Below, in pieces: positions 2,521 through 11,100 of a stretch of 13,705 bases of DNA. The DNA is from an uncultured Ruminococcus sp. (GTDB taxonomy: Bacteria > Bacillota > Clostridia > Oscillospirales > Ruminococcaceae), in the NCBI GenBank assembly GCA_947174965.1, contig CAMWKY010000023.1, forward strand, positions 1 through 13,705, given 5' to 3'. A program made the position numbers and the translations under genes. Positions within the stretch are counted from its first letter, which is position 1. Each line of letters begins with the position of its first letter. The notes beneath the pieces are model-generated. The model saw only the letters and a program-made list of their open reading frames with translations. It had not been told where the DNA came from and made no database searches.

Positions 2521-3257
2521 TTATTTCTTCAAGTATCGTTTCAGCAAAAAAGCACAGAAATACGGAAATGTATATATATCCTCGCTGTAGCCTATATTTC
2601 CGCCAGTGAACTTTATTCTGTAATTAATATCGGGATAGCGTTCAGAACTTATAAGCGTTCTGAGTGACTTAGCCCTTCCGTTTGTAGCCTTAACTTCAAC
2701 AGGTATCAGGTTATTGACAGTGCGTACAAAGAAATCCTGCTCCAGTACAGAGTCATCTCTTTTATAGTAGTATAAGTCATAACCGCTTTTCGCAAGTGTT
2801 TCAGCGATAATACTTTCATACAATGCTCCTTTATATACACCAAGATTTTTATTAGCTCTCAAATCGTCCTGTAATTCGTCATCAAGCATTGACACAAGAA
2901 GTCCCGTATCGGCAAAGTACAGCTTATATTTATCTTCAATGAAGTTGCAATATCGGGAAACTTCTGAATCTCATCGAAAAATATCAACGTTTCGCCCTCT
3001 ATGAATCGCTTTGACGGGTCTATGAGTGATATATTCTTGATAATGTCAGAAGCCTTGTAGCCATCTGAAATAATCATCTCGTACTTTGGTTCTTCGACAA
3101 AATTTATCTCAATCACGCTTGAATAGTTTTTCTCTGCAAACTTGCGTATAGATGCAGTCTTACCGACTTGCCGTGAACCTTTGACAATAAGCGGTTTGCG
3201 ATCTGCACTCGCTTTCCATTCAGTAAGAAAACCGTCAATCTTACGTTTCAGATTCAT
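2521..3257 (-). pseudogene. AAA_14/DUF4143 ATPase with internal deletion
   Basis: The first half is a good AAA_14 ATPase N-terminus starting at ATG 3257-3255, behind an AGGTGAT ribosome binding site. It has Walker A GSRQVGKT (residues 27-34) and Walker B LIFFDEIQ (91-98). Just after the DEIQKFPDIATSLK segment, near 2935-2950, the sequence jumps to the start of the C-terminal DUF4143 domain (KYKLYFADTGLLVSML) in another frame. That domain then continues to the stop at 2521 with the nuclease-like DFFVR and LIPVEVKATNGRAKSLRTL segments and the usual FCAFLLKRYL end. Intact family members are about 400-450 residues, so roughly 200 are missing and the two halves are out of frame. The intact family is often associated with mobile elements and toxin-antitoxin-like contexts, but its cellular role is not settled. 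The promoter and ribosome binding site look sound, so a truncated ATPase fragment ending at 2859 could still be made. Confidence 0.85.
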
Positions 3258-3279
3258 AAAGCAATCACCTCTTACTCTT

Positions 3280-3308
3280 ATTATACAATAATTACAACGA
3301 AAAATCAA
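3280..3308 (-). promoter_or_regulatory. Promoter of the AAA_14 ATPase relic
   Basis: On the minus strand, TTGATT (3308-3303) and a perfect TATAAT (3285-3280) are spaced by 17 bases. The -10 box lies about 23 bases upstream of the ATG at 3257, leaving a short leader that contains the ribosome binding site. Confidence 0.65.
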
Positions 3309-3362
3309 TAGCAAATTACATTTTTTTAACGAATTTCTAATATGGATTTACAATTTTTACTA

Positions 3363-3590
3363 TTAATCAGATAAAGCACAATAGATATTGACAATCCGTT
3401 CAAAACCTTGTCCAATGTGTTTGGGCTTATCGGTATAGCTGTACTTATTATTTTTTCCATATTTTACAGGCTTGTCTGCTGTTTTTATTGCATCAACAGC
3501 AAGTCCAACAAATCCCGACTTACAGCCGTTTTCAGCACTATAGAACATTACCTTTACCGATGTAGGTGTATCAGTAACTATTTTGCACAC
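3363..3590 (-). CDS. Short orphan ORF, possibly the 3' remnant of an interrupted gene
   Basis: This 75-residue frame has ordinary protein composition (GFVGLAVDAIKTADKPVKYGKN, ending HIGQGFERIVNIYCALSD), but I do not recognise its family. It begins with GTG at 3590 with no ribosome binding site, an in-frame TAA directly precedes that codon, and the poly-T tract of the recombinase terminator (3602-3607 on the plus strand) lies only about a dozen bases upstream. There is therefore no room for a promoter of its own. I infer that it is the C-terminal piece of a longer gene cut off when the neighbouring element arrived. It could instead be a spurious frame; the opposite strand is also open over much of it (3408-3680), but that frame overlaps the real recombinase end. 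Confidence 0.35.
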   Translation of the reverse strand: MCKIVTDTPTSVKVMFYSAENGCKSGFVGLAVDAIKTADKPVKYGKNNKYSYTDKPKHIGQGFERIVNIYCALSD

Positions 3591-3649: not shown

Positions 3650-5239
3650 TCAAATCAGATATTCAAACTTTACTTTATAGTTTTTCCCTCTGCCTGACGT
3701 ACTGTAACGAAGTCTAACAGCTGGAACATATTTCAGCTTTATCTCAAGTATTTTTTTATTGTAAACTGTAATTTTTTCCAGAACTTCACCGCAGATATGT
3801 TCGTCAGCAGTTTCAAAATCAAGATACTTTTTTACACATTCAATGCACTTCTGCATTTTTCTTTTCTGACAATCAAGCTCCGACTGCATTTTCTGGTGAT
3901 GTTCTATTTTCATTCTGATTTCAGAAATCTGATTATCATAATACTGATTCTGTTTTTTATAATCCTCAGCACTGACTCTATCTTCCAGATATTTATCAAG
4001 AAGCTTGCGTTTCTTGTCTTCAATATTGTCAATATCTTTCTGAAACTTTTTTATATCTATTTTTTCAGGAACACTACACACAGTATGTATCTCTGAAATC
4101 ATTTCTGAAATCAGCTCTTTCTGATTGATTTTCATAATGCTCAGTACATACGCTGTACCCTCAAGTAATACCACTTCATTGACAGAATTATTGTCACAGC
4201 CTATAACCTCACCGAATTTATTTACTTTTCCTGCACCATGCTTTGCATTATTCGCACATCTCCACGCTTTATAAACAGAACCGTCTTTACATTTTTTTGT
4301 ACGGCTTACAAATCTTTCACAGCACTCTCCGCATACTATTTTACCACTGCACCAATAACGACAACTATGTCTTGACTTCTGTTCATCTGTAAGCGTGCGT
4401 GTTGCAAGTATTTCCTGTGCTTTCTCCCACGTAATCCGGTCAATGATTGGTTCATGGTGATTTTTTATGTATATTTTTTCTTTCTCTCCTCTGTTGTACT
4501 TCTTTTTATGTGTAAGATAATTAGGAGTAAAAGTTTTCTGCTGGCAAAGGTCACCAACATATTTTTCATTACGTAAAATTCTCAGAATAACTGTATTGCT
4601 CCATTCCTTTACACGCATAGGCTTTATGCCTGCTTCCATTAGTTCTCTAGCAATTATATGAGTTCCCTTGCTCTCATTTACATACTTATGAAAAATCAGT
4701 CTGACAATTTCAGCACCCTCTTCATTTATATGCAATTCACCGTTTTTTACATCATACCCCAGCATACTTCTTCCGAAAACTACCCCTTGTTTCATACGTT
4801 GTTTCTGTCCCCATATTACACGCTCAGAAGTCTTACGGCTTTCCTCCTGTGCAATAGTTGACATAATTGAAAGTCTCATTTCTCCGTCTCGTTCAAGAGT
4901 ATTAATGTTGTCATTAATGAATACTACCCCTACGCCTTTTTCTTTCAGCTTTCTTGTATATTCAAGAGTATCGACCACATTTCTTGAAAATCTACTTACT
5001 TCCTTTGTAATGATAAGATTGATTTTACCTGCATATGCGTCATCAATCATTCTGTTGAAACCATCACGGTGAAGTGTTGACGTACCGCTTACGCCCTCGT
5101 CATAATATACTTCTACCAATGTCCATTCTTCGTTTCGATTGATGTAATCTGTAAAATATCTTCGCTGACTTTCAAGAGAATTGACCTGCGAATCCTTATC
5201 CGTTGAAACTCTGCAATATGCGGCAACTTTTAATGACAT
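3650..5239 (-). CDS. Large serine recombinase (site-specific integrase), intact
   Basis: This 529-residue protein has the full large serine recombinase plan. The resolvase-type catalytic domain spans residues about 4-145, with the nucleophile Ser12 in YCRVSTDKDSQ and the arginine-rich EVSRFSRN near 80-87. The Recombinase DNA-binding domain (about 160-270) contains IIARELMEAGIKP and ILRNEKYVGD. A zinc ribbon has cysteines 303, 306, 328 and 348. A coiled coil lies at about 396-455, followed by a basic tail. Such enzymes cut and rejoin attachment sites through a 5'-phosphoserine link to integrate or excise phages and conjugative or mobilisable elements. The ATG at 5239 overlaps the previous stop by 10 bases, so it is the last gene of a coupled three-gene operon that ends in the terminator at 3601-3639. 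All motifs are intact and the enzyme is probably functional. The target site is unknown. Confidence 0.95.
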   Translation of the reverse strand: MSLKVAAYCRVSTDKDSQVNSLESQRRYFTDYINRNEEWTLVEVYYDEGVSGTSTLHRDGFNRMIDDAYAGKINLIITKEVSRFSRNVVDTLEYTRKLKEKGVGVVFINDNINTLERDGEMRLSIMSTIAQEESRKTSERVIWGQKQRMKQGVVFGRSMLGYDVKNGELHINEEGAEIVRLIFHKYVNESKGTHIIARELMEAGIKPMRVKEWSNTVILRILRNEKYVGDLCQQKTFTPNYLTHKKKYNRGEKEKIYIKNHHEPIIDRITWEKAQEILATRTLTDEQKSRHSCRYWCSGKIVCGECCERFVSRTKKCKDGSVYKAWRCANNAKHGAGKVNKFGEVIGCDNNSVNEVVLLEGTAYVLSIMKINQKELISEMISEIHTVCSVPEKIDIKKFQKDIDNIEDKKRKLLDKYLEDRVSAEDYKKQNQYYDNQISEIRMKIEHHQKMQSELDCQKRKMQKCIECVKKYLDFETADEHICGEVLEKITVYNKKILEIKLKYVPAVRLRYSTSGRGKNYKVKFEYLI

Positions 5240-5490
5240 TTCATACTACCCCGTTTCTGTTTCTCCATAAGTGCCATAAGCTGTGAGTAACTTATAACCC
5301 CTTCAGAATACAGACTTTTATACACGCCGATTTTTATAAGAGTCTTGAACTCAGCCTGATTACTTGCTTCAATAGCTGTCTCCTTTATCTGATTATTCTT
5401 CATTCTACCAACTCCCATGTTCACATTATATGTGACCGGAATCGATATATTCTTTGTGATTTGTACTGTATTTTCAACACAAGCATTCAT
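5230..5490 (-). CDS. Small accessory protein between resolvase and recombinase (SHOCT-like C-terminus)
   Basis: This 86-residue protein starts at ATG 5490, four bases before the resolvase stop (ATGA overlap). It has a very strong ribosome binding site (AGGAGG, seven bases upstream), so the start is secure. Its stop overlaps the start of the large recombinase by 10 bases. Residues 47-79 (EFKTLIKIGVYKSLYSEG, then VISYSQLMALMEKQKRG) resemble the short helix-turn-helix pattern of SHOCT-like domains: an amphipathic helix, a GVIS turn and a second helix. Small proteins of this kind are often encoded next to serine recombinases in gut Firmicutes elements. Position and coupling suggest a partner of one of the two recombinases, for example a directionality or assembly factor, but no function can be read from the sequence alone. 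Confidence 0.8.
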   Translation of the reverse strand: MNACVENTVQITKNISIPVTYNVNMGVGRMKNNQIKETAIEASNQAEFKTLIKIGVYKSLYSEGVISYSQLMALMEKQKRGSMKCH

Positions 5491-6104
5491 AATTTTTCCT
5501 CCTCAGAATGTCTTTTGATAAGATTGTAATATGTACCTTTTTTAAGTCCCATTTCTCTCATCGCATCAACAGGACGAATGATACCCCTGTTAACCTTTTC
5601 CATAACGCTGTCCCAATTAGCTGGCTTTTCTGCATTTGGTCTGCCGAACTTAACTCCTCGCTGTTTCGCCGAATCAATACCCTCTCGCTGTCTCTGCCTG
5701 ATTTTTAGACGTTCTGCCTCTGCCATACTGCCGAGTACCTCAATAAGAATTGTATTAATCATATCCATAACCCACTCCTGCTCTGCTGAAAATTCTGCAA
5801 GCGTAGTAGGAATATCAAGTATCTTCACACGTATATGATGTTCCTTGAAATACTCCAGTTCGTTTCTGATGTCCGCCTTACTTCTGCTGAGACGGTCAAG
5901 CTCCTTGACTACAAGAGTATCACCGCTTCTCAGCATAAAATTTTTCAGTGAAGCATACCCATCACGTTTCATATCCCTGCCTGACTTCTTGTCAACTATG
6001 ATGTTATGCTCGTCTACCCCATACTCAATCAATGCCTGTACCTGCCTGTCTGCGTTCTGCTCTTTACTTGATACTCTCGCATATCCGTAAACCCTGTTTT
6101 CCAT
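5487..6104 (-). CDS. Small serine resolvase/invertase
   Basis: This 205-residue protein has the classic resolvase/invertase layout. The catalytic domain begins VYGYARVSSKEQNADRQ with nucleophile Ser12, and contains KELDRLSRSKADI (active-site arginines about 71 and 74). A long E-helix runs through AEAERLKIRQRQREGID (about 128-144), followed by FGRP and a C-terminal helix-turn-helix (about 165-198, IIRPVDAMREMGLKKG and TYYNLIKRH). The family resolves cointegrates or inverts DNA between short paired sites. The ATG at 6104 has a good GGAGGT ribosome binding site. It is the first gene of a coupled trio with the 86-aa protein and the large recombinase. A 28-bp perfect palindrome about 100 bases upstream could be part of its recombination or control site. 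Length and motifs are complete. Confidence 0.95.
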   Translation of the reverse strand: MENRVYGYARVSSKEQNADRQVQALIEYGVDEHNIIVDKKSGRDMKRDGYASLKNFMLRSGDTLVVKELDRLSRSKADIRNELEYFKEHHIRVKILDIPTTLAEFSAEQEWVMDMINTILIEVLGSMAEAERLKIRQRQREGIDSAKQRGVKFGRPNAEKPANWDSVMEKVNRGIIRPVDAMREMGLKKGTYYNLIKRHSEEEKL

Positions 6105-6241: not shown

Positions 6242-6877
6242 CTAACGCCCTATGATTTTACCAAGAAGTCTCAGCTTATCCATATTAACAGCATTATCTG
6301 AAATCAGATTTTGTTTAAGTACACTGAAAATATATGTCAGCTTATCTGCATCAAGTCTGCAAAAATTTTCTTTCATAGTAATTTGATTATACGACTTGAA
6401 AAACTCAAGTTCTTCTTTGATTTCAGAAAACTCGTACTGATTTTCACTGCAACAGCCTTTATTCTCAATACTGCGGATTACTGTATCAGGAATAAAATTC
6501 TCAACCCTGTCATACCCCTTTGTCAAAACTCTTGCGAGTACAATTGTGCGGTCGCAAATACGCTTACTGCCTGAAATAATACCCTCAAAAACATCGTCCC
6601 CGAAAATATCATATAATCGCTTTGAAGCCTTACTTCTTGCACCTCGAACAGTATTCGGAGAGATACCCTGATACTTCGCTGCATCAACTGCCCTCATATT
6701 TATATAACGCACCATTTGTCTGGTTTTCTCCGTGTCGCACCATGCACATGACATTACTGCCGTTTTCATCTCTCTTAAAGCGGTCAGTCTGTAGCCGTAC
6801 TGCTTACGTTCCTCGTCAGTCTCGGACAGAATAAGGCTCTCCGTTTCTGCAATCTGATTGAAAAAATTCTGTGACAT
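6242..6877 (-). CDS. Unknown protein with sigma-region-4-like HTH, next to recombinases
   Basis: This 211-residue protein does not match a family I can name. The start at 6877 is chosen because a GGGAGGTGA ribosome binding site lies just upstream; a GTG at 6907 is in frame but poorer. Residues about 62-92 (RAVDAAKYQGISPNTVRGA, then RSKASKRLYDIF) have the spacing and residues of a sigma-70 region 4 or LuxR-like helix-turn-helix, with GISPNTVR as turn and recognition helix. The N-terminal 50 residues are helical and contain CAWCDTEKTRQMV; the C-terminal half is helical (EFSEIKEELEFFKSYNQI) and otherwise featureless. It reads in the same direction as the resolvase operon, 137 bases upstream and separated by the palindrome, so a role as transcriptional activator or repressor of the recombination genes is a reasonable inference. 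It is probably part of the same mobile element. Confidence 0.75.
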   Translation of the reverse strand: MSQNFFNQIAETESLILSETDEERKQYGYRLTALREMKTAVMSCAWCDTEKTRQMVRYINMRAVDAAKYQGISPNTVRGARSKASKRLYDIFGDDVFEGIISGSKRICDRTIVLARVLTKGYDRVENFIPDTVIRSIENKGCCSENQYEFSEIKEELEFFKSYNQITMKENFCRLDADKLTYIFSVLKQNLISDNAVNMDKLRLLGKIIGR

Positions 6878-6907
6878 TCCGTCACCTCCCATCGTTTTTG
6901 TAATCAC

Positions 6908-7945: not shown

Positions 7946-7983
7946 AAAAAATAACCGTTCCAAAAGCGTATCTTGGAACGGTT
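7946..7983 (-). terminator. Hairpin with T-tract, leftward terminator after the repeat array
   Basis: A perfect 10-bp stem AACCGTTCCA (7953-7962) and TGGAACGGTT (7974-7983) has an 11-base loop and is followed on the minus strand by TATTTTTTATG. It would stop leftward transcripts that begin inside the 42-bp repeat region, since the Thg1 operon already ends at 8415-8454. On the plus strand no T-run follows. Confidence 0.7.
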
Positions 7984-7992
7984 TAAGTTAAA

Positions 7993-8301
7993 TTTAAAAC
8001 AGCAAAAGACAAAACAGAAACAATTTTAGTCAAACTTAAAACAGCAGAAGACAAAATGAAAACAATTTTAGTCAAACTTAAAACAGCAAAAGACAAAATA
8101 GAAACAATTTTAATCAAACTTAAAACAGCAAAAGACAAAATAGAAACAATTTCAGCTAAACTTAAAACAGCAGAAGACAAAATAAAAACAATTTTAGTCA
8201 AACTTAAAACAGCTAAATACAACTTAAAAACAATTCAAGATAACGTTGAAACAGCTTCAGACAAATTGGTAACAGACAAATACAACTTGAAAACAGTCTA
8301 A
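7993..8301 (+). repeat. 42-bp tandem repeat array, coiled-coil-coding in one frame
   Basis: Unit starts are 7993, 8035, 8077, 8119, 8161, 8203 and 8245, with a decayed eighth at 8287. The first five units are nearly identical and drift increases to the right. Each 42-bp unit splits into two related 21-bp halves. In the plus frame through 8056 the units read as two heptads of the type LKTAKDK-IETILVK, with Leu/Ile/Val or Ala at the a and d positions kept even in the diverged copies. The frame is open from about 7955 to the TAA at 8299-8301. The only ATG is at 8056, inside the second unit, with no ribosome binding site and no visible promoter. The leftward frame (8222-7983) is also open but starts at TTG, and a stop appears when it is extended into unit 7. 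This is either a relic of a coiled-coil gene that has lost its start or a non-coding array of 21-bp spaced sites. Confidence 0.8.
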
Positions 8302-8559
8302 GATAATCTCAAAACAGAGAAAAATATTATAAAAATCATCATTTTGGAATCTGCATTTTTGAGTTATAACATACCCCTGAAAAACAGCAGAATTTTACGG
8401 CTTATCTCGACGGTATTAAAAAGCCTGAGATACCCATTTTTGGACATCTCAGGCGAAATCTGAGCATTTTTTAAGTAAAATACCAATCGAATACCATTTC
8501 GACTACAGAACTAAAATACCCCCAAATTAACTGGCGGTTTTGATACCCCTGTATATCAT
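8302..8559. other. Intergenic DNA with terminator and three TACCCC motifs
   Basis: Apart from the terminator at 8415-8454 there is no gene. The coiled-coil register continues weakly for about ten codons beyond the stop at 8301. Three TACCCC hexamers occur at 8372, 8517 and 8544, the densest cluster in the window, and a short direct repeat (ATACCA, TCGAATACCA) lies near 8480-8500. Confidence 0.5.
8415..8454 (-). terminator. Terminator of the RNA ligase-Thg1 operon
   Basis: A perfect 9-bp stem GCCTGAGAT (8423-8431) and ATCTCAGGC (8446-8454) is followed on the minus strand by TTTTTAATACC. It lies about 105 bases after the stop codon of the Thg1-like gene. Confidence 0.85.
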
Positions 8560-9306
8560 CTACTTTACTCGAAAATAAACGCAGTCCTCAACATAGTCTC
8601 TGTTCTCGCTGAAAACAGGGATTTCCATATCAAGTACCCACTTCATTCTCAGTGCTTCATTAGCCGTACCCTCATTGATTACAAAAGGCTTTTTTATACA
8701 GCATACCCCTCTCTTTAAATTCAAAGGAAAGCCATTCCAGTCAACATTTTTCTCAGACAGAAGCATTTCTACCGCTTTATTGCAGTTTACGCCAAGTAGC
8801 TGACTGTGACTGAAATATGCCTGAGCAGTCGCCTGAATAGAGTTACGGATTGCATCTTGCTGTCTCCATATCATATAGTTGTTTACTTCCTCTTTCGGAA
8901 TACTGAATGCTCTGCTGTCAAAATTAGCCTTGTCAATGCGTTTCTGATATATACCGTCCGCATTTTCTGCTGCATTTCTGAAATATTTGTTAAACGCAGA
9001 TGTCGCCAGACTTGCGGTAATACTGCAAATTTTAAGCAGTCCGTTACCGAACCAAGCATCTGTATCAAGTTTCTGATAATCGCACATCACAAGGGAAATC
9101 TCGTCCGACTGCGTATAACCTATTACACAACCCTCAACATTCTCGCACAGTTCTTTCATAGTCTGATACATGACATTCGTCAAAATATCGTCAAAAGGAC
9201 GGACAAATCCCCTTGTAAAGCTGTGGAATCCCTTGCCGTCAAGACGTACAATTACAGGAGTTCTGCGTGTCAAATAGTACCTTGTAATGTTCTCATAGCC
9301 TTTCAT
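8560..9306 (-). CDS. Thg1-like 3'-5' RNA polymerase (tRNAHis guanylyltransferase family)
   Basis: Thg1-family enzymes add nucleotides to the 5' end of RNA, in reverse of normal polymerases. Bacterial Thg1-like proteins repair 5'-truncated tRNAs in a template-dependent way. The palm-domain motifs are clear: PVIVRLDGKGFHSFTRGF with metal-binding Asp23, YTQSDEISLVM with catalytic Asp68-Glu69, and the bacterial-type MIWRQQDAIRNSIQA near residue 143. The length from ATG 9306 (248 residues) is close to the family's usual 240-270. The family's conserved LGDRMK start is present but lies upstream of this ATG: reading back gives TSDNLGDR before MKGYEN. The only plausible start there is ACG at 9330-9328, which shares one base with the ligase stop (TAACG) and has GGGAG upstream. 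That looks like a classic TAATG overlap with the T changed to C. Second gene of the operon with the RNA ligase. Confidence 0.92.
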   Translation of the reverse strand: MKGYENITRYYLTRRTPVIVRLDGKGFHSFTRGFVRPFDDILTNVMYQTMKELCENVEGCVIGYTQSDEISLVMCDYQKLDTDAWFGNGLLKICSITASLATSAFNKYFRNAAENADGIYQKRIDKANFDSRAFSIPKEEVNNYMIWRQQDAIRNSIQATAQAYFSHSQLLGVNCNKAVEMLLSEKNVDWNGFPLNLKRGVCCIKKPFVINEGTANEALRMKWVLDMEIPVFSENRDYVEDCVYFRVK

Positions 9307-9329
9307 GCGGTCGCCAAGATTATCACTCG

Positions 9330-10229
9330 TTACGTCTTCTCCCTCTTTTTTAAAATCTCTTTTGCAAGTCTTATGGAAACGCTGTTTGAGAACTTGCCGA
9401 AATTCTCAACCTGATTTACAACTTCCGGTACTTCCTTAACACAGTCGTGATATACCGCTGAGGGAAGTGTTTTATAAATCGTCTTCATATCTTTTGCGGA
9501 AAAATCTTCGGGCAGAATACCCTCGTCCACAAGTTTATACAGAATTTTTTCCACTCTCGCAGGTGTTACAACCGTCTCTGTAAGTTCTTCAAGACGTTTT
9601 TTCTCTTTGGGACTTTCTGAATGACGGCGGACTTTCTTCCATACCTCTTTAAAACGCTCGTGTACTATCTTTGTGTATACGACATCAGCAGAAAGGTCAT
9701 TCTGTTTCTTAATAACGATACCTTCGCCGATTTCTCCGCCCATTTCGGTTTTACCTACGAGTTGCTTATAATCTTCCCAAGCGGTAAACTCGCCCTCATA
9801 GAAAACAGGTACATAATTCAGTCCCAGCTTGTCAGCAAGACTTTTTACCTCGTTCTGCGGAAGCCAGCACTTATTTTCTGTATCGAAAACATCAAAACAG
9901 TACATTGTATTATAATGTTCTTCAGGATACTTCACGGTATGCTTTACAAGCCACTCGCCGAACATACGCAGTCTGTCGCCAAGAACAGACTTTACAAGTT
10001 CCTTGTCAAGTTTCTGCACCCACTCATAGTAACCCCTAAGCGTATTTTCAGCGGAAAGTATCTGATTACGGCTGAAACATTGCAGTAAATCCGTCTCGCT
10101 GTCGTACTGAAAGCTGACATTTGAACCGTCAATTTTCTCCTGAATAATAATCCTGTCACCCTTGTGAAACCTGTCACCTATTCCTCTGTTGAGAACCTCA
10201 ATCTCCATATAGTGTTTATGCTTTAACAT
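9330..10229 (-). CDS. Rnl2-like ATP-dependent RNA ligase
   Basis: This 299-residue protein has the nucleotidyltransferase motifs of the RNA ligase family. Motif I is EKIDGSN with adenylated Lys32. Motif III is RMFGEWL (about 88-94), followed by YCFDVFD (110-116). Motif IV is EGIVIKK (169-175). Motif V is in VYTKIVHERFKEVWKK (about 184-199). A helical C-terminal domain follows, as in T4 Rnl2-type ligases. Such enzymes seal a 3'-OH to a 5'-phosphate in broken RNA, often tRNA, through an AMP-RNA intermediate. The start at 10229 has an AGAGGAG ribosome binding site; longer in-frame extension to 10307 would cross the promoter. It is the first gene of a two-gene operon, its TAA overlapping by one base the apparent start of the Thg1-like gene. 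Expression is probably controlled through the operator at 10272-10288. No kinase or phosphatase for end healing is encoded nearby. Confidence 0.92.
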   Translation of the reverse strand: MLKHKHYMEIEVLNRGIGDRFHKGDRIIIQEKIDGSNVSFQYDSETDLLQCFSRNQILSAENTLRGYYEWVQKLDKELVKSVLGDRLRMFGEWLVKHTVKYPEEHYNTMYCFDVFDTENKCWLPQNEVKSLADKLGLNYVPVFYEGEFTAWEDYKQLVGKTEMGGEIGEGIVIKKQNDLSADVVYTKIVHERFKEVWKKVRRHSESPKEKKRLEELTETVVTPARVEKILYKLVDEGILPEDFSAKDMKTIYKTLPSAVYHDCVKEVPEVVNQVENFGKFSNSVSIRLAKEILKKREKT

Positions 10230-10263
10230 TATTTTTACTCCTCTAAAAAATTTTAAAAATCCC

Positions 10264-10292
10264 TTGTCAAGTACAGCAATATGCTGTATAAT
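10264..10292 (+). promoter_or_regulatory. Promoter of the XRE regulator, rightward
   Basis: TTGTCA (10264-10269) and a perfect TATAAT (10287-10292) have a 17-base spacer. Transcription would start near 10299, giving a leader of about 75 bases before the ATG at 10375. The spacer contains almost the whole inverted repeat. Confidence 0.75.
10272..10288. promoter_or_regulatory. 7-3-7 inverted repeat, probable operator
   Basis: TACAGCA (10272-10278) and TGCTGTA (10282-10288) are perfect reverse complements around ATA. The site fills the -35/-10 spacer of the rightward promoter, touches its -10 box and lies at the expected start point of the leftward ligase promoter. One bound repressor dimer could block both. 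The XRE protein encoded next to it is the obvious candidate ligand. Confidence 0.7.
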
Positions 10293-10295
10293 AGT

Positions 10296-10324
10296 ATCAT
10301 AGTACAAAAAGTTAATTCTGTCAA
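10296..10324 (-). promoter_or_regulatory. Promoter of the RNA ligase-Thg1 operon, leftward
   Basis: On the minus strand, a perfect TTGACA (10324-10319) and TATGAT (10301-10296) are separated by 17 bases. The start would fall near 10289, 60 bases upstream of the ligase ATG. It overlaps the rightward promoter, so two polymerases could not occupy both at once. Confidence 0.75.
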
Positions 10325-10374
10325 TGGATTATAGTTCAGGACTAAAATCCTCATATCTGAAAGGAGATACTTAT

Positions 10375-11052
10375 ATGAAAAACTTCGACAATGAAGCAGA
10401 AGAAGCACTCTGGAAAATGGCGTTTTCCAAAACGCTGAATGACCTGATATTCAAACATGACACCAATATCAATGAACTGGCAATTGCTATCAATGCCGAC
10501 CCAAAAACAATACGTAACTACATAAGCCAAAAAAGTGTACCTACGGCAATTATACTCATGAAAATCGCTGACTACTTTAATGTAGATACAGACTATCTGG
10601 TGACAGGCGGAAAAACGGGACGTGAATATCCTTTCTCCAAAAAAATCTATGAACTTGCAGTTCTGATAAAGAACCTCGATATAAAACTGAATAATATTGA
10701 CCAGCTTGATGACGGAAACTATCAGTCTGTATCTGTTACAATCAATGACCCTGTTCTTGCTCCGATTATTATTGAACTCTGCATGACTCCCGAAAAAGAC
10801 TTTATAAGCCATGTTGAAAAGATTATATCAAAATACAATAATATGGAAACGTCTGACCAGCATTTTGCCGATTATGCGATATTTCAGAACCTTATCAAGG
10901 ACAGGTATATTTTTGACGGATACGATGCAATGGACAATTTTACCGCTGATGATGAGATTGAAGAACGCCGTGAAAAATGGGAGGAAATGTCTCCGAATGA
11001 ACGTGAACACTGGTGGCGTAACTGGCTGAAAGAACATGGTCTGATTAACTGA
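10375..11052 (+). CDS. XRE-family transcriptional regulator of the RNA-repair operon
   Basis: This 225-residue protein starts at ATG 10375 with AAGGAG nine bases upstream; an in-frame ATG at 10324 lies inside the opposing promoter and is unlikely. Residues about 18-78 form a Cro/C1-type (XRE) helix-turn-helix: LNDLIFKHDTNINELAIAI, then DPKTIRNYISQKSVPTAIILMKIADYF, ending in the typical VDTDYLVTG. The remaining 145 residues have no family I recognise. They include a probable effector or dimerisation region and an acidic, tryptophan-rich tail (EMSPNEREHWWRNWLKEHG). It is divergent from the ligase gene with overlapping promoters and a shared inverted repeat, a layout typical of an autorepressor that also controls its neighbour. 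It probably senses RNA damage or another stress through the C-terminal region, but that is inference. A strong terminator follows directly. Confidence 0.9.
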   Translation: MKNFDNEAEEALWKMAFSKTLNDLIFKHDTNINELAIAINADPKTIRNYISQKSVPTAIILMKIADYFNVDTDYLVTGGKTGREYPFSKKIYELAVLIKNLDIKLNNIDQLDDGNYQSVSVTINDPVLAPIIIELCMTPEKDFISHVEKIISKYNNMETSDQHFADYAIFQNLIKDRYIFDGYDAMDNFTADDEIEERREKWEEMSPNEREHWWRNWLKEHGLIN

Positions 11053-11098
11053 AAAAACTCGCTTCTGCCCTCGTTATGAGAGTGAAGCGAGTTTTTTT
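11052..11098. terminator. Bidirectional terminator between converging genes
   Basis: A perfect 10-bp stem AACTCGCTTC (11056-11065) and GAAGCGAGTT (11084-11093) has an inner CTC/GAG pair in the loop. Seven T (11092-11098) follow on the plus strand, and the A-run at 11052-11057 gives six T on the minus strand. It serves both the XRE gene and the leftward lipoprotein gene, which converge here. Confidence 0.85.
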
Positions 11099-11100
11099 AT

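Follow-up and report, generated by a model that had tools for sequence, protein, structure and literature searches.

A conserved and probably regulated cassette of RNA ligase and Thg1-like polymerase genes, likely for RNA repair, in an uncultured Ruminococcus

A stretch of 13,705 nucleotides from an uncultured Ruminococcus sp. (contig CAMWKY010000023.1, assembly GCA_947174965.1; hereafter the window) carries an RNA ligase gene followed by the gene of a Thg1-like 3'-5' RNA polymerase (Thg1-like protein, TLP), and an XRE-type regulator gene that diverges from them (Table 1). This cassette is a real and conserved unit; it is probably regulated, and RNA repair is its likely function. Genomes, contigs and loci that have to be told apart below are numbered with G, C and L, respectively, G000 being the genome of the window.

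Table 1. Features of the window, those of the cassette first
Feature	Position	Strand	Details
RNA ligase	9330..10229	-	299 aa, ATG at 10229; stop 9330-9332
Thg1-like 3'-5' RNA polymerase (TLP)	8560..9306	-	248 aa, ATG 9304-9306; PF04446
Divergent XRE-type regulator	10375..11052	+	225 aa; ATG 10375 preceded by AAAGGAG (by eye)
Predicted ligase-TLP promoter	10296..10324	-	TTGACA-17-TATGAT, 11/12 consensus matches
Predicted XRE promoter	10264..10292	+	TTGTCA-17-TATAAT, 11/12 consensus matches
Candidate operator palindrome TACAGCA-N3-TGCTGTA	10272..10288		perfect 7-bp arms, overlaps the 17-nt XRE promoter spacer
Intrinsic terminator, ligase-TLP operon	8423..8454	-	dG -21.6, z -7.0; hairpin + T-run
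Intrinsic terminator, XRE	11050..11100	+	dG -24.9, z -7.6; 0/200 shuffles; hairpin + T-run
Large serine recombinase (RES2)	3650..5239	-	529 aa; PF00239, PF07508
Small serine recombinase	5487..6104	-	205 aa; PF00239 E 4.6e-30; 93% identical in L029, L030
Element gene of unknown function	6242..6907	-	with the recombinases; 8/125 genus genomes; no Pfam match
Probable recombinase-element end (attachment-like junction)	3556..3590		L080 identity stops at 3556

The ligase carries a PF09414 domain (E 4.6e-31, 108.7 bits against a cut-off of 27 in the Pfam scan), and the residues K31-x-D33-G34, E91-W92, E168-G169-x3-K173 and K186 do not vary among 53 aligned sequences, of which the window's is one; we take them to be the nucleotidyltransferase motifs I, III, IV and V. 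When folds were compared, the core of the protein had the nucleotidyltransferase fold of T4 Rnl2 and of the Naegleria RNA ligase (NgrRnl) and was most similar to these two enzymes, at an identity of about 17-19% and with the C-terminal helical part (206-297) barely covered. The 2hvr alignment spans residues 1-295 at a root-mean-square deviation of 14.3, and most other structure rows reach only about 1-195. The fold comparison was clearer than the searches of PDB sequences, in which phmmer gave no match at 1e-3 and a profile search gave 7 weak ones. Two NCBIfam ligase models were missed by far, the protein scoring 39.9 bits with the DRB0094-type model TIGR02306, whose cut-off is 151.15. As an Rnl2-like member of PF09414, it should seal 3'-OH/5'-P RNA ends. 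An earlier note on this DNA, written from its letters and open reading frames (ORFs), had proposed an Rnl2-type ligase with intact catalytic motifs; the motifs are indeed intact, and the assignment holds for the core.

The same note had recognized the polymerase correctly. The TLP matches PF04446 (E 5.5e-30, 104.4 bits against a cut-off of 29.2), the nearest solved structure is BtTLP (4kgk, E 8.1e-64, aligned over residues 1-245), and the metal-binding carboxylates D23, D68 and E69, which correspond to D30, D75 and E76 of BtTLP, are kept in 19 of 19 TLPs compared. The two proteins share their family and their catalytic carboxylates; the paper on BtTLP (4KGK/4KGM, PMC3701042) mentions neither a ligase nor an operon. 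They differ at K43, which in BtTLP contacts the activating ATP (PMC3701042) and which is Arg in the window. Five ligase-linked TLPs were aligned at this position, G301 being left out: four have Arg (window, G302, G410:C77 and L005) and that of G385 has Lys. Nucleotide addition by characterised TLPs is templated, and what the bacterial and archaeal members of the family act on in the cell is described as not fully settled (PMC6471195). The TLP of the window should rebuild broken RNA 5' ends by 3'-5' addition. One could also imagine that it acts as a 5'-activating partner, its first step making App-RNA that the ligase would use directly, with no net addition of nucleotides. Such a role has been raised for Thg1 in general (PMC2904730), and the Arg found at the K43 position in four of the five aligned proteins would fit it. 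However, the motif I lysine is kept in all 53 aligned ligases, so that the enzyme should not need outside activation, and we regard this scenario as quite improbable.

What makes the cassette more than a chance assembly is its recurrence. Our survey covered 125 genomes of the genus, G000 counted in; all seven of the genomes with names among the relatives are Ruminococcus, two of them R. flavefaciens metagenome-assembled genomes. The TLP was found in 10 genomes (11 genes, 12 matches) and the ligase likewise in 10, with nine full-length loci in eight genomes, one fragment and one distant match. A TLP gene adjoins five of the nine full-length ligase loci (G000:C23, G301, G302, G410:C77 and G385), a gene of the RlaP family lies downstream of two (G373, and G397, there beyond two opposite-strand ORFs), and neither occurs in the stretch read at the other two (G388, and G000:C265, where the contig end cuts the locus). 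The XRE gene is divergently adjacent to seven of the nine, namely the five with TLP and the two with RlaP. XRE matches occur in 25 genomes; they are full-length in eight, seven of which have the gene beside the ligase, and the partial ones, which cover at most 117 query residues and mostly the helix-turn-helix region, were set aside. With genomes treated as independent, the sharing of XRE and ligase (seven of eight and eight genomes in 125) has P ~8e-10 and that of ligase and TLP (five of eight and eight genomes in 125, the distant TLPs of G382 and G348 left out) has P ~1e-5, values that are only indicative because the genomes are related. The ligase-TLP-XRE neighbourhood is more than chance. 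The earlier note had named the lack of such a conserved neighbourhood in related genomes as grounds for giving up its proposal, and the survey shows that the neighbourhood is conserved. Between the window and L002-L004 (the G301, G302 and G410 loci), ligase and TLP are 85-94% identical and the XRE protein 48-53%.

Outside this arrangement the TLP keeps varied company. Among 20 cellular TLP loci, a TLP remnant in G135 being left out, six have a ligase gene adjacent on one strand (the five genus loci, the window's included, and L005), nine have a PF13671-type kinase (called by Pfam for L038, L042, L044 and L045 and by BLAST similarity for the other five), four have a gene for a protein of 171-174 aa, and one has a Macro-like gene (E 0.0047, below the cut-off). 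The 171-174 aa protein takes the place of the ligase beside the TLP (L006, L007, L008 and L032); two members were scanned against Pfam and gave no match. In L035 (G356), the TLP gene is on the same strand as an NAPRTase/NAMPT-like gene, with three small ORFs between, and as a Macro-like gene, a setting of NAD salvage and ADP-ribose. Beyond the genus, the TLP was found in 7 of 297 family genomes (one a fragment below the cut-off) and 3 of 398 phylum genomes, and the ligase in 3 of the 297, the window's genome being counted each time. Ten of 72,556 plasmid records match, all below 60% identity.

We then considered how the cassette may be controlled. The XRE gene does diverge from a shared control region, as the earlier note had it, which spans 145 nt (10230-10374) once the XRE start is moved from 10324 to the ATG that AAAGGAG precedes. 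The regulator gives weak HTH_3 and HTH_19 matches (HTH_3 at 22.7 bits, just below the cut-off of 23); the NCBIfam model of RstR-type phage repressors (NF041951, phage_RstR) is matched at E 1.6e-8 but with 34.7 bits, below the cut-off of 80. The structure model of the XRE protein has a pLDDT of 71.6 with a poor C-terminal part. The predicted ligase and XRE promoters face each other. By eye, the same facing layout recurs in six ligase-XRE loci (window, L029, L030, L031, L034 and L058), where ATTATA-17-TNNCAA lies on the strand opposite the XRE promoter and a sequence resembling the ligase promoter stands at the matching place in the sister loci. Over the whole window, consensus promoters do not exceed the number that chance would give (56 against 48.7). 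In L059, a 129-aa ORF precedes the ligase gene. The candidate palindrome lies over the promoter of the XRE gene itself and faces that of the ligase, and L058 has the same half-sites with arms of 9 bp; this gives a slender indication that repression fits better than the activation by XRE proposed in the earlier note, and repression of both promoters would be the simplest reading.

The two ends of the cassette are closed by terminators, as had been claimed; over the whole window such structures are above chance (15 found, 7.1 expected). The trailer after the TLP gene is kept in L029, L030 and L031 (85-93%), and at 72% after RlaP in L058. The overlap of the ligase and TLP genes, also asserted at the outset, does not stand with standard start codons, since 23 nt separate the ligase stop from the annotated TLP start. 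In five sister loci (L005, L029, L030, L031 and L034) the TLP begins 8 or 9 codons earlier, at most 8 bases from the ligase stop.

Nor is the cassette self-contained, as the earlier note had called it. ORF and Pfam scans recognised no kinase, phosphatase, MACRO or methyltransferase gene in it; the same genome holds two other loci that could heal RNA ends. The first is a near-complete bacterial Pnkp on contig C199 (L210), open at the contig start, which matches TIGR04075 with 1333 bits over model positions 5-851 of 851 and has kinase, phosphatase and adenylyltransferase domains; the gene after it encodes an ECF-type sigma factor. The second, on C265 (L061), encodes another ligase of the same subfamily, 65% identical, with a metallophosphatase relative directly upstream and an unknown protein after it. 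It is possible that RNA ends are healed in trans by the Pnkp or by the C265 metallophosphatase.

The gene identities, the conserved catalytic residues, the layout, the conservation, one replacement of the TLP gene and the end-healing genes elsewhere can be read in the sequence; repression, signal, substrate and order of steps are what we infer. The XRE protein would most likely repress its own promoter and that of the ligase from the site between the facing promoters, and a signal would relieve this repression, so that ligase and TLP are made together. Broken RNA ends would first be healed by the Pnkp of the cell or by the metallophosphatase of the second locus; the TLP would then activate the 5'-phosphate and, with the intact strand of a helix lying opposite, extend the broken one 5'-ward by the nucleotides that it lacks. 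The ligase, which in its core most resembles nick-sealing ligases, would close the nick. We consider such a regulated RNA-end repair, with XRE repression and healing in trans, to be reasonably probable and the best account of the data, among explanations that are not mutually exclusive.

Several observations weigh against it. The XRE gene is missing from the stretch read at two full-length ligase loci (G388 and G000:C265) and from L005, a ligase-TLP pair; conversely, the G345 element has an XRE gene, 75% identical to that of G385, and no ligase, so that the protein may be a regulator of the element. The palindrome of the window is absent from four of the six promoters compared (L029, L030, L031 and L034), over this promoter L034 carries another palindrome, with 8-bp arms, and the compared control stretches hold additional inverted repeats. 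Because any perfect 7-bp palindrome arises in a 145-nt stretch with P ~0.11 (shuffle test), the case for this one rests on the match in L058. Moreover, the window has no ATG, GTG or TTG where the five sister TLP genes start, and in the G301 copy (L029) the ligase and the TLP gene each have one in-frame TAG.

The earlier note had a more specific substrate in mind, tRNAs damaged by anticodon nucleases, colicin-like toxins or phage-triggered defence, which the pair would rebuild and reseal as a counter-defence. A review does place RNA ligases, RlaP and Thg1 in tRNA-repair counter-defence (PMC7824862), and phages hold relatives of both enzymes: among 50,697 phage records, 272 have relatives of the ligase and 127 of the TLP, all below 60% identity. 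Bacillus phage FADO has both, far apart; L111 has one small gene between them, both being confirmed by Pfam, and L116 has TLP, ligase and a Macro relative. However, L111 and L116 are the only two of 80 viral ligase loci (kept of 124 confirmed) with a TLP in the fetched flanks, and templated 5' addition is unsuited to an unpaired anticodon loop. Since TLPs need a template, breaks within helices suit them better than those in anticodon loops, and anticodon-nuclease repair, weakly supported as it is, seems to us rather doubtful. PADLOC models gave no clear match to the cassette (ligase, REase_II at E 0.009; XRE, RmrA at E 0.0013 and HTH_VI at E 0.0056; TLP, none), and in the window the Rfam scan found no family at gathering scores and ARAGORN no tRNA. 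A toxin-antitoxin pair was considered and rejected without a dedicated test.

The RNA-end repair setting itself is supported by the relatives of the ligase, which adjoin metallophosphatase, PARG, NADAR or RlaP genes. In one sister locus, L058 (G373), the TLP is replaced in place by other genes. The window and L058 have the palindrome in common, XRE proteins that are 51-53% identical, ligases that are 80-82% identical, and a trailer with its terminator that is 72% identical over 203 nt; their DNA similarity is lost near the end of the ligase gene (window 9345) and picks up again within the trailer (window 8542). Between these shared flanks, the TLP of the window gives way in L058 to a 219-aa ORF of unknown function, a PARG relative and RlaP, a family predicted to restore lost nucleotides ahead of ligation (PMC7824862). 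Elsewhere, L034 (G385) has ligase, TLP, and then metallophosphatase and PARG; a metallophosphatase gene (PF00149, E 4.8e-12) lies downstream of the TLP in L029 (G301); and L060 (G388) runs through metallophosphatase, ligase, two unknown proteins, a PARG relative, NADAR and a further ORF, the first residues of which resemble the L029 phosphatase and which has no Pfam match. A family with a PYYQ-RGKP-TEEQAF-like motif adjoins the ligase in four loci (L058 9001-9660, L059 5077-5922, L060 8052-9417 and L061 2940-3611); its members in L058, L059 and L060 (8052-8750) have no Pfam match.

We speculate, tentatively, that the XRE-controlled ligase is the constant part of a modular chassis behind which the gap-filling enzyme is exchanged, TLP for RlaP and an ADP-ribose enzyme, mobile elements thereby matching the side of an RNA break that gets rebuilt to whichever nuclease they meet. 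This idea remains rather unlikely: the window and L058 provide a single clear exchange, three genomes with a TLP-ligase pair (G000, G302 and G410) have an RlaP-family gene elsewhere, and in G397 RlaP stands apart from the ligase operon, beyond the two opposite-strand ORFs. RlaP is not specific to the ligase either, with matches in 49 of the 125 genus genomes.

The recombinase genes that the earlier note saw beside the cassette are there, and they belong to an element. From 7913 to 3556, the window is 97.8% identical over 4,362 bp to L080 (G410), which then runs into cotJC and cotJB; the copy of the large recombinase in L080 is 98.3% identical, and the element ends at cotJC. No cotJC half was seen beside the element in the window, where about 29 bp of the cotJC side are shared at 3556, and the C-half was not found in G000, a weak negative because this genome is 83% complete. 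In L081 (G345), the two cotJC halves flank a roughly 13-kb element that carries XRE and recombinase genes, without ligase or TLP, and in L034 the cotJC C-half lies beside XRE-ligase-TLP. Elements at cotJC, a spore-coat gene of the manganese-catalase family, were thus seen with both halves in L081 and one half each in L034, L079 and L080, and their cargo differs; gene-intervening elements in sporulation genes are known. No cotJC was found in the fetched stretches of G301, G302 and G373. The gene at 6242-6907 lies close to the ligase in four genomes (G000, G301, G302 and G373) and on a different contig in G410; it is also present in G345, G378 and G390 (a fragment), genomes where no ligase was found.

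The element invites another explanation, in which the XRE protein regulates the serine-recombinase element and ligase and TLP are passenger cargo, no working pair. The sparse distribution of the two genes (each in 10 of the 125 genomes), the ligase-free G345 element between its cotJC halves and the interruption of both genes in the G301 copy are all in its favour. Yet seven of the eight full-length XRE loci lie beside the ligase, and this adjacency persists both where the large recombinase reaches no more than 33-34% identity (L029, L030 and L058, from G301, G302 and G373) and where the TLP is absent (L058 and L059). Together with the 85-94% identity of ligase and TLP between the window and L002-L004, this makes a mere passenger role unlikely, and we retain regulated RNA-end repair as the preferred reading.

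Some further features of the window were noticed. To the left of the element end, there are a second, partial serine recombinase (24-938, 34% identical to the large one) and an AAA_14 ORF (2859-3314) that overlaps another ORF, the two perhaps being a single split gene (2521-3314). Upstream of the small recombinase, 6206-6238 matches L030, L058 and L080 in the reverse orientation too; since it matches in both orientations, it is an inverted repeat, and perhaps a recombinase site. Between the TLP and the next gene lies an array of a tandem 42-nt unit (7982-8306; six copies, 88% matches) with related shorter units, which may break assemblies because the G410 contigs C77 and C38 each begin close to the corresponding position.

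The pairing of ligase and Thg1 is already published: Anantharaman, Iyer and Aravind described in 2010 predicted bacterial operons in which Thg1 adjoins the gene of an RNA ligase, a polynucleotide kinase or a MACRO protein, and proposed RNA repair (PMC2904730). The window cassette is a variant of these. The ligase is adjacent to Thg1 in both; the kinase, the most persistent partner in the 2010 neighbourhoods, is absent from the window operon, kinase and MACRO genes being frequent there and not universal. The available text of that study makes no mention of an XRE gene, the promoter layout, the RlaP exchange or a recombinase element. In the open-licence literature, we found no paper naming this cassette in Ruminococcus, and no description of how the regulator is arranged, of PARG-RlaP standing in place of TLP in one relative or of the recombinase element, the 2016 review lying outside that scope. 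The RNA-repair systems of Burroughs and Aravind (2016), as cited in PMC7824862 and PMC9503650, associate RNA ligases with RlaP, phosphatases and ADP-ribose enzymes. Here, a TLP shares a small operon with a ligase and has a dedicated regulator at its side, and the same chassis occurs in a relative with another end-adding enzyme, which offers a natural comparison of which RNA breaks need TLP and which need RlaP. Two other kinds of system complete the picture. The bacterial Pnkp-Hen1 and Pnkp1-Rnl-Hen1 systems heal and seal broken RNA (PMC4411300), and a near-complete Pnkp is encoded elsewhere in the window's genome; the window cassette itself has no recognised kinase, phosphatase or methyltransferase. 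RtcR-RtcBA is likewise a regulated bacterial RNA-repair operon (PMC7790460), but its ligase is of another family, and its regulator is an activator with a CARF domain that binds tRNA halves, in place of a small XRE protein.

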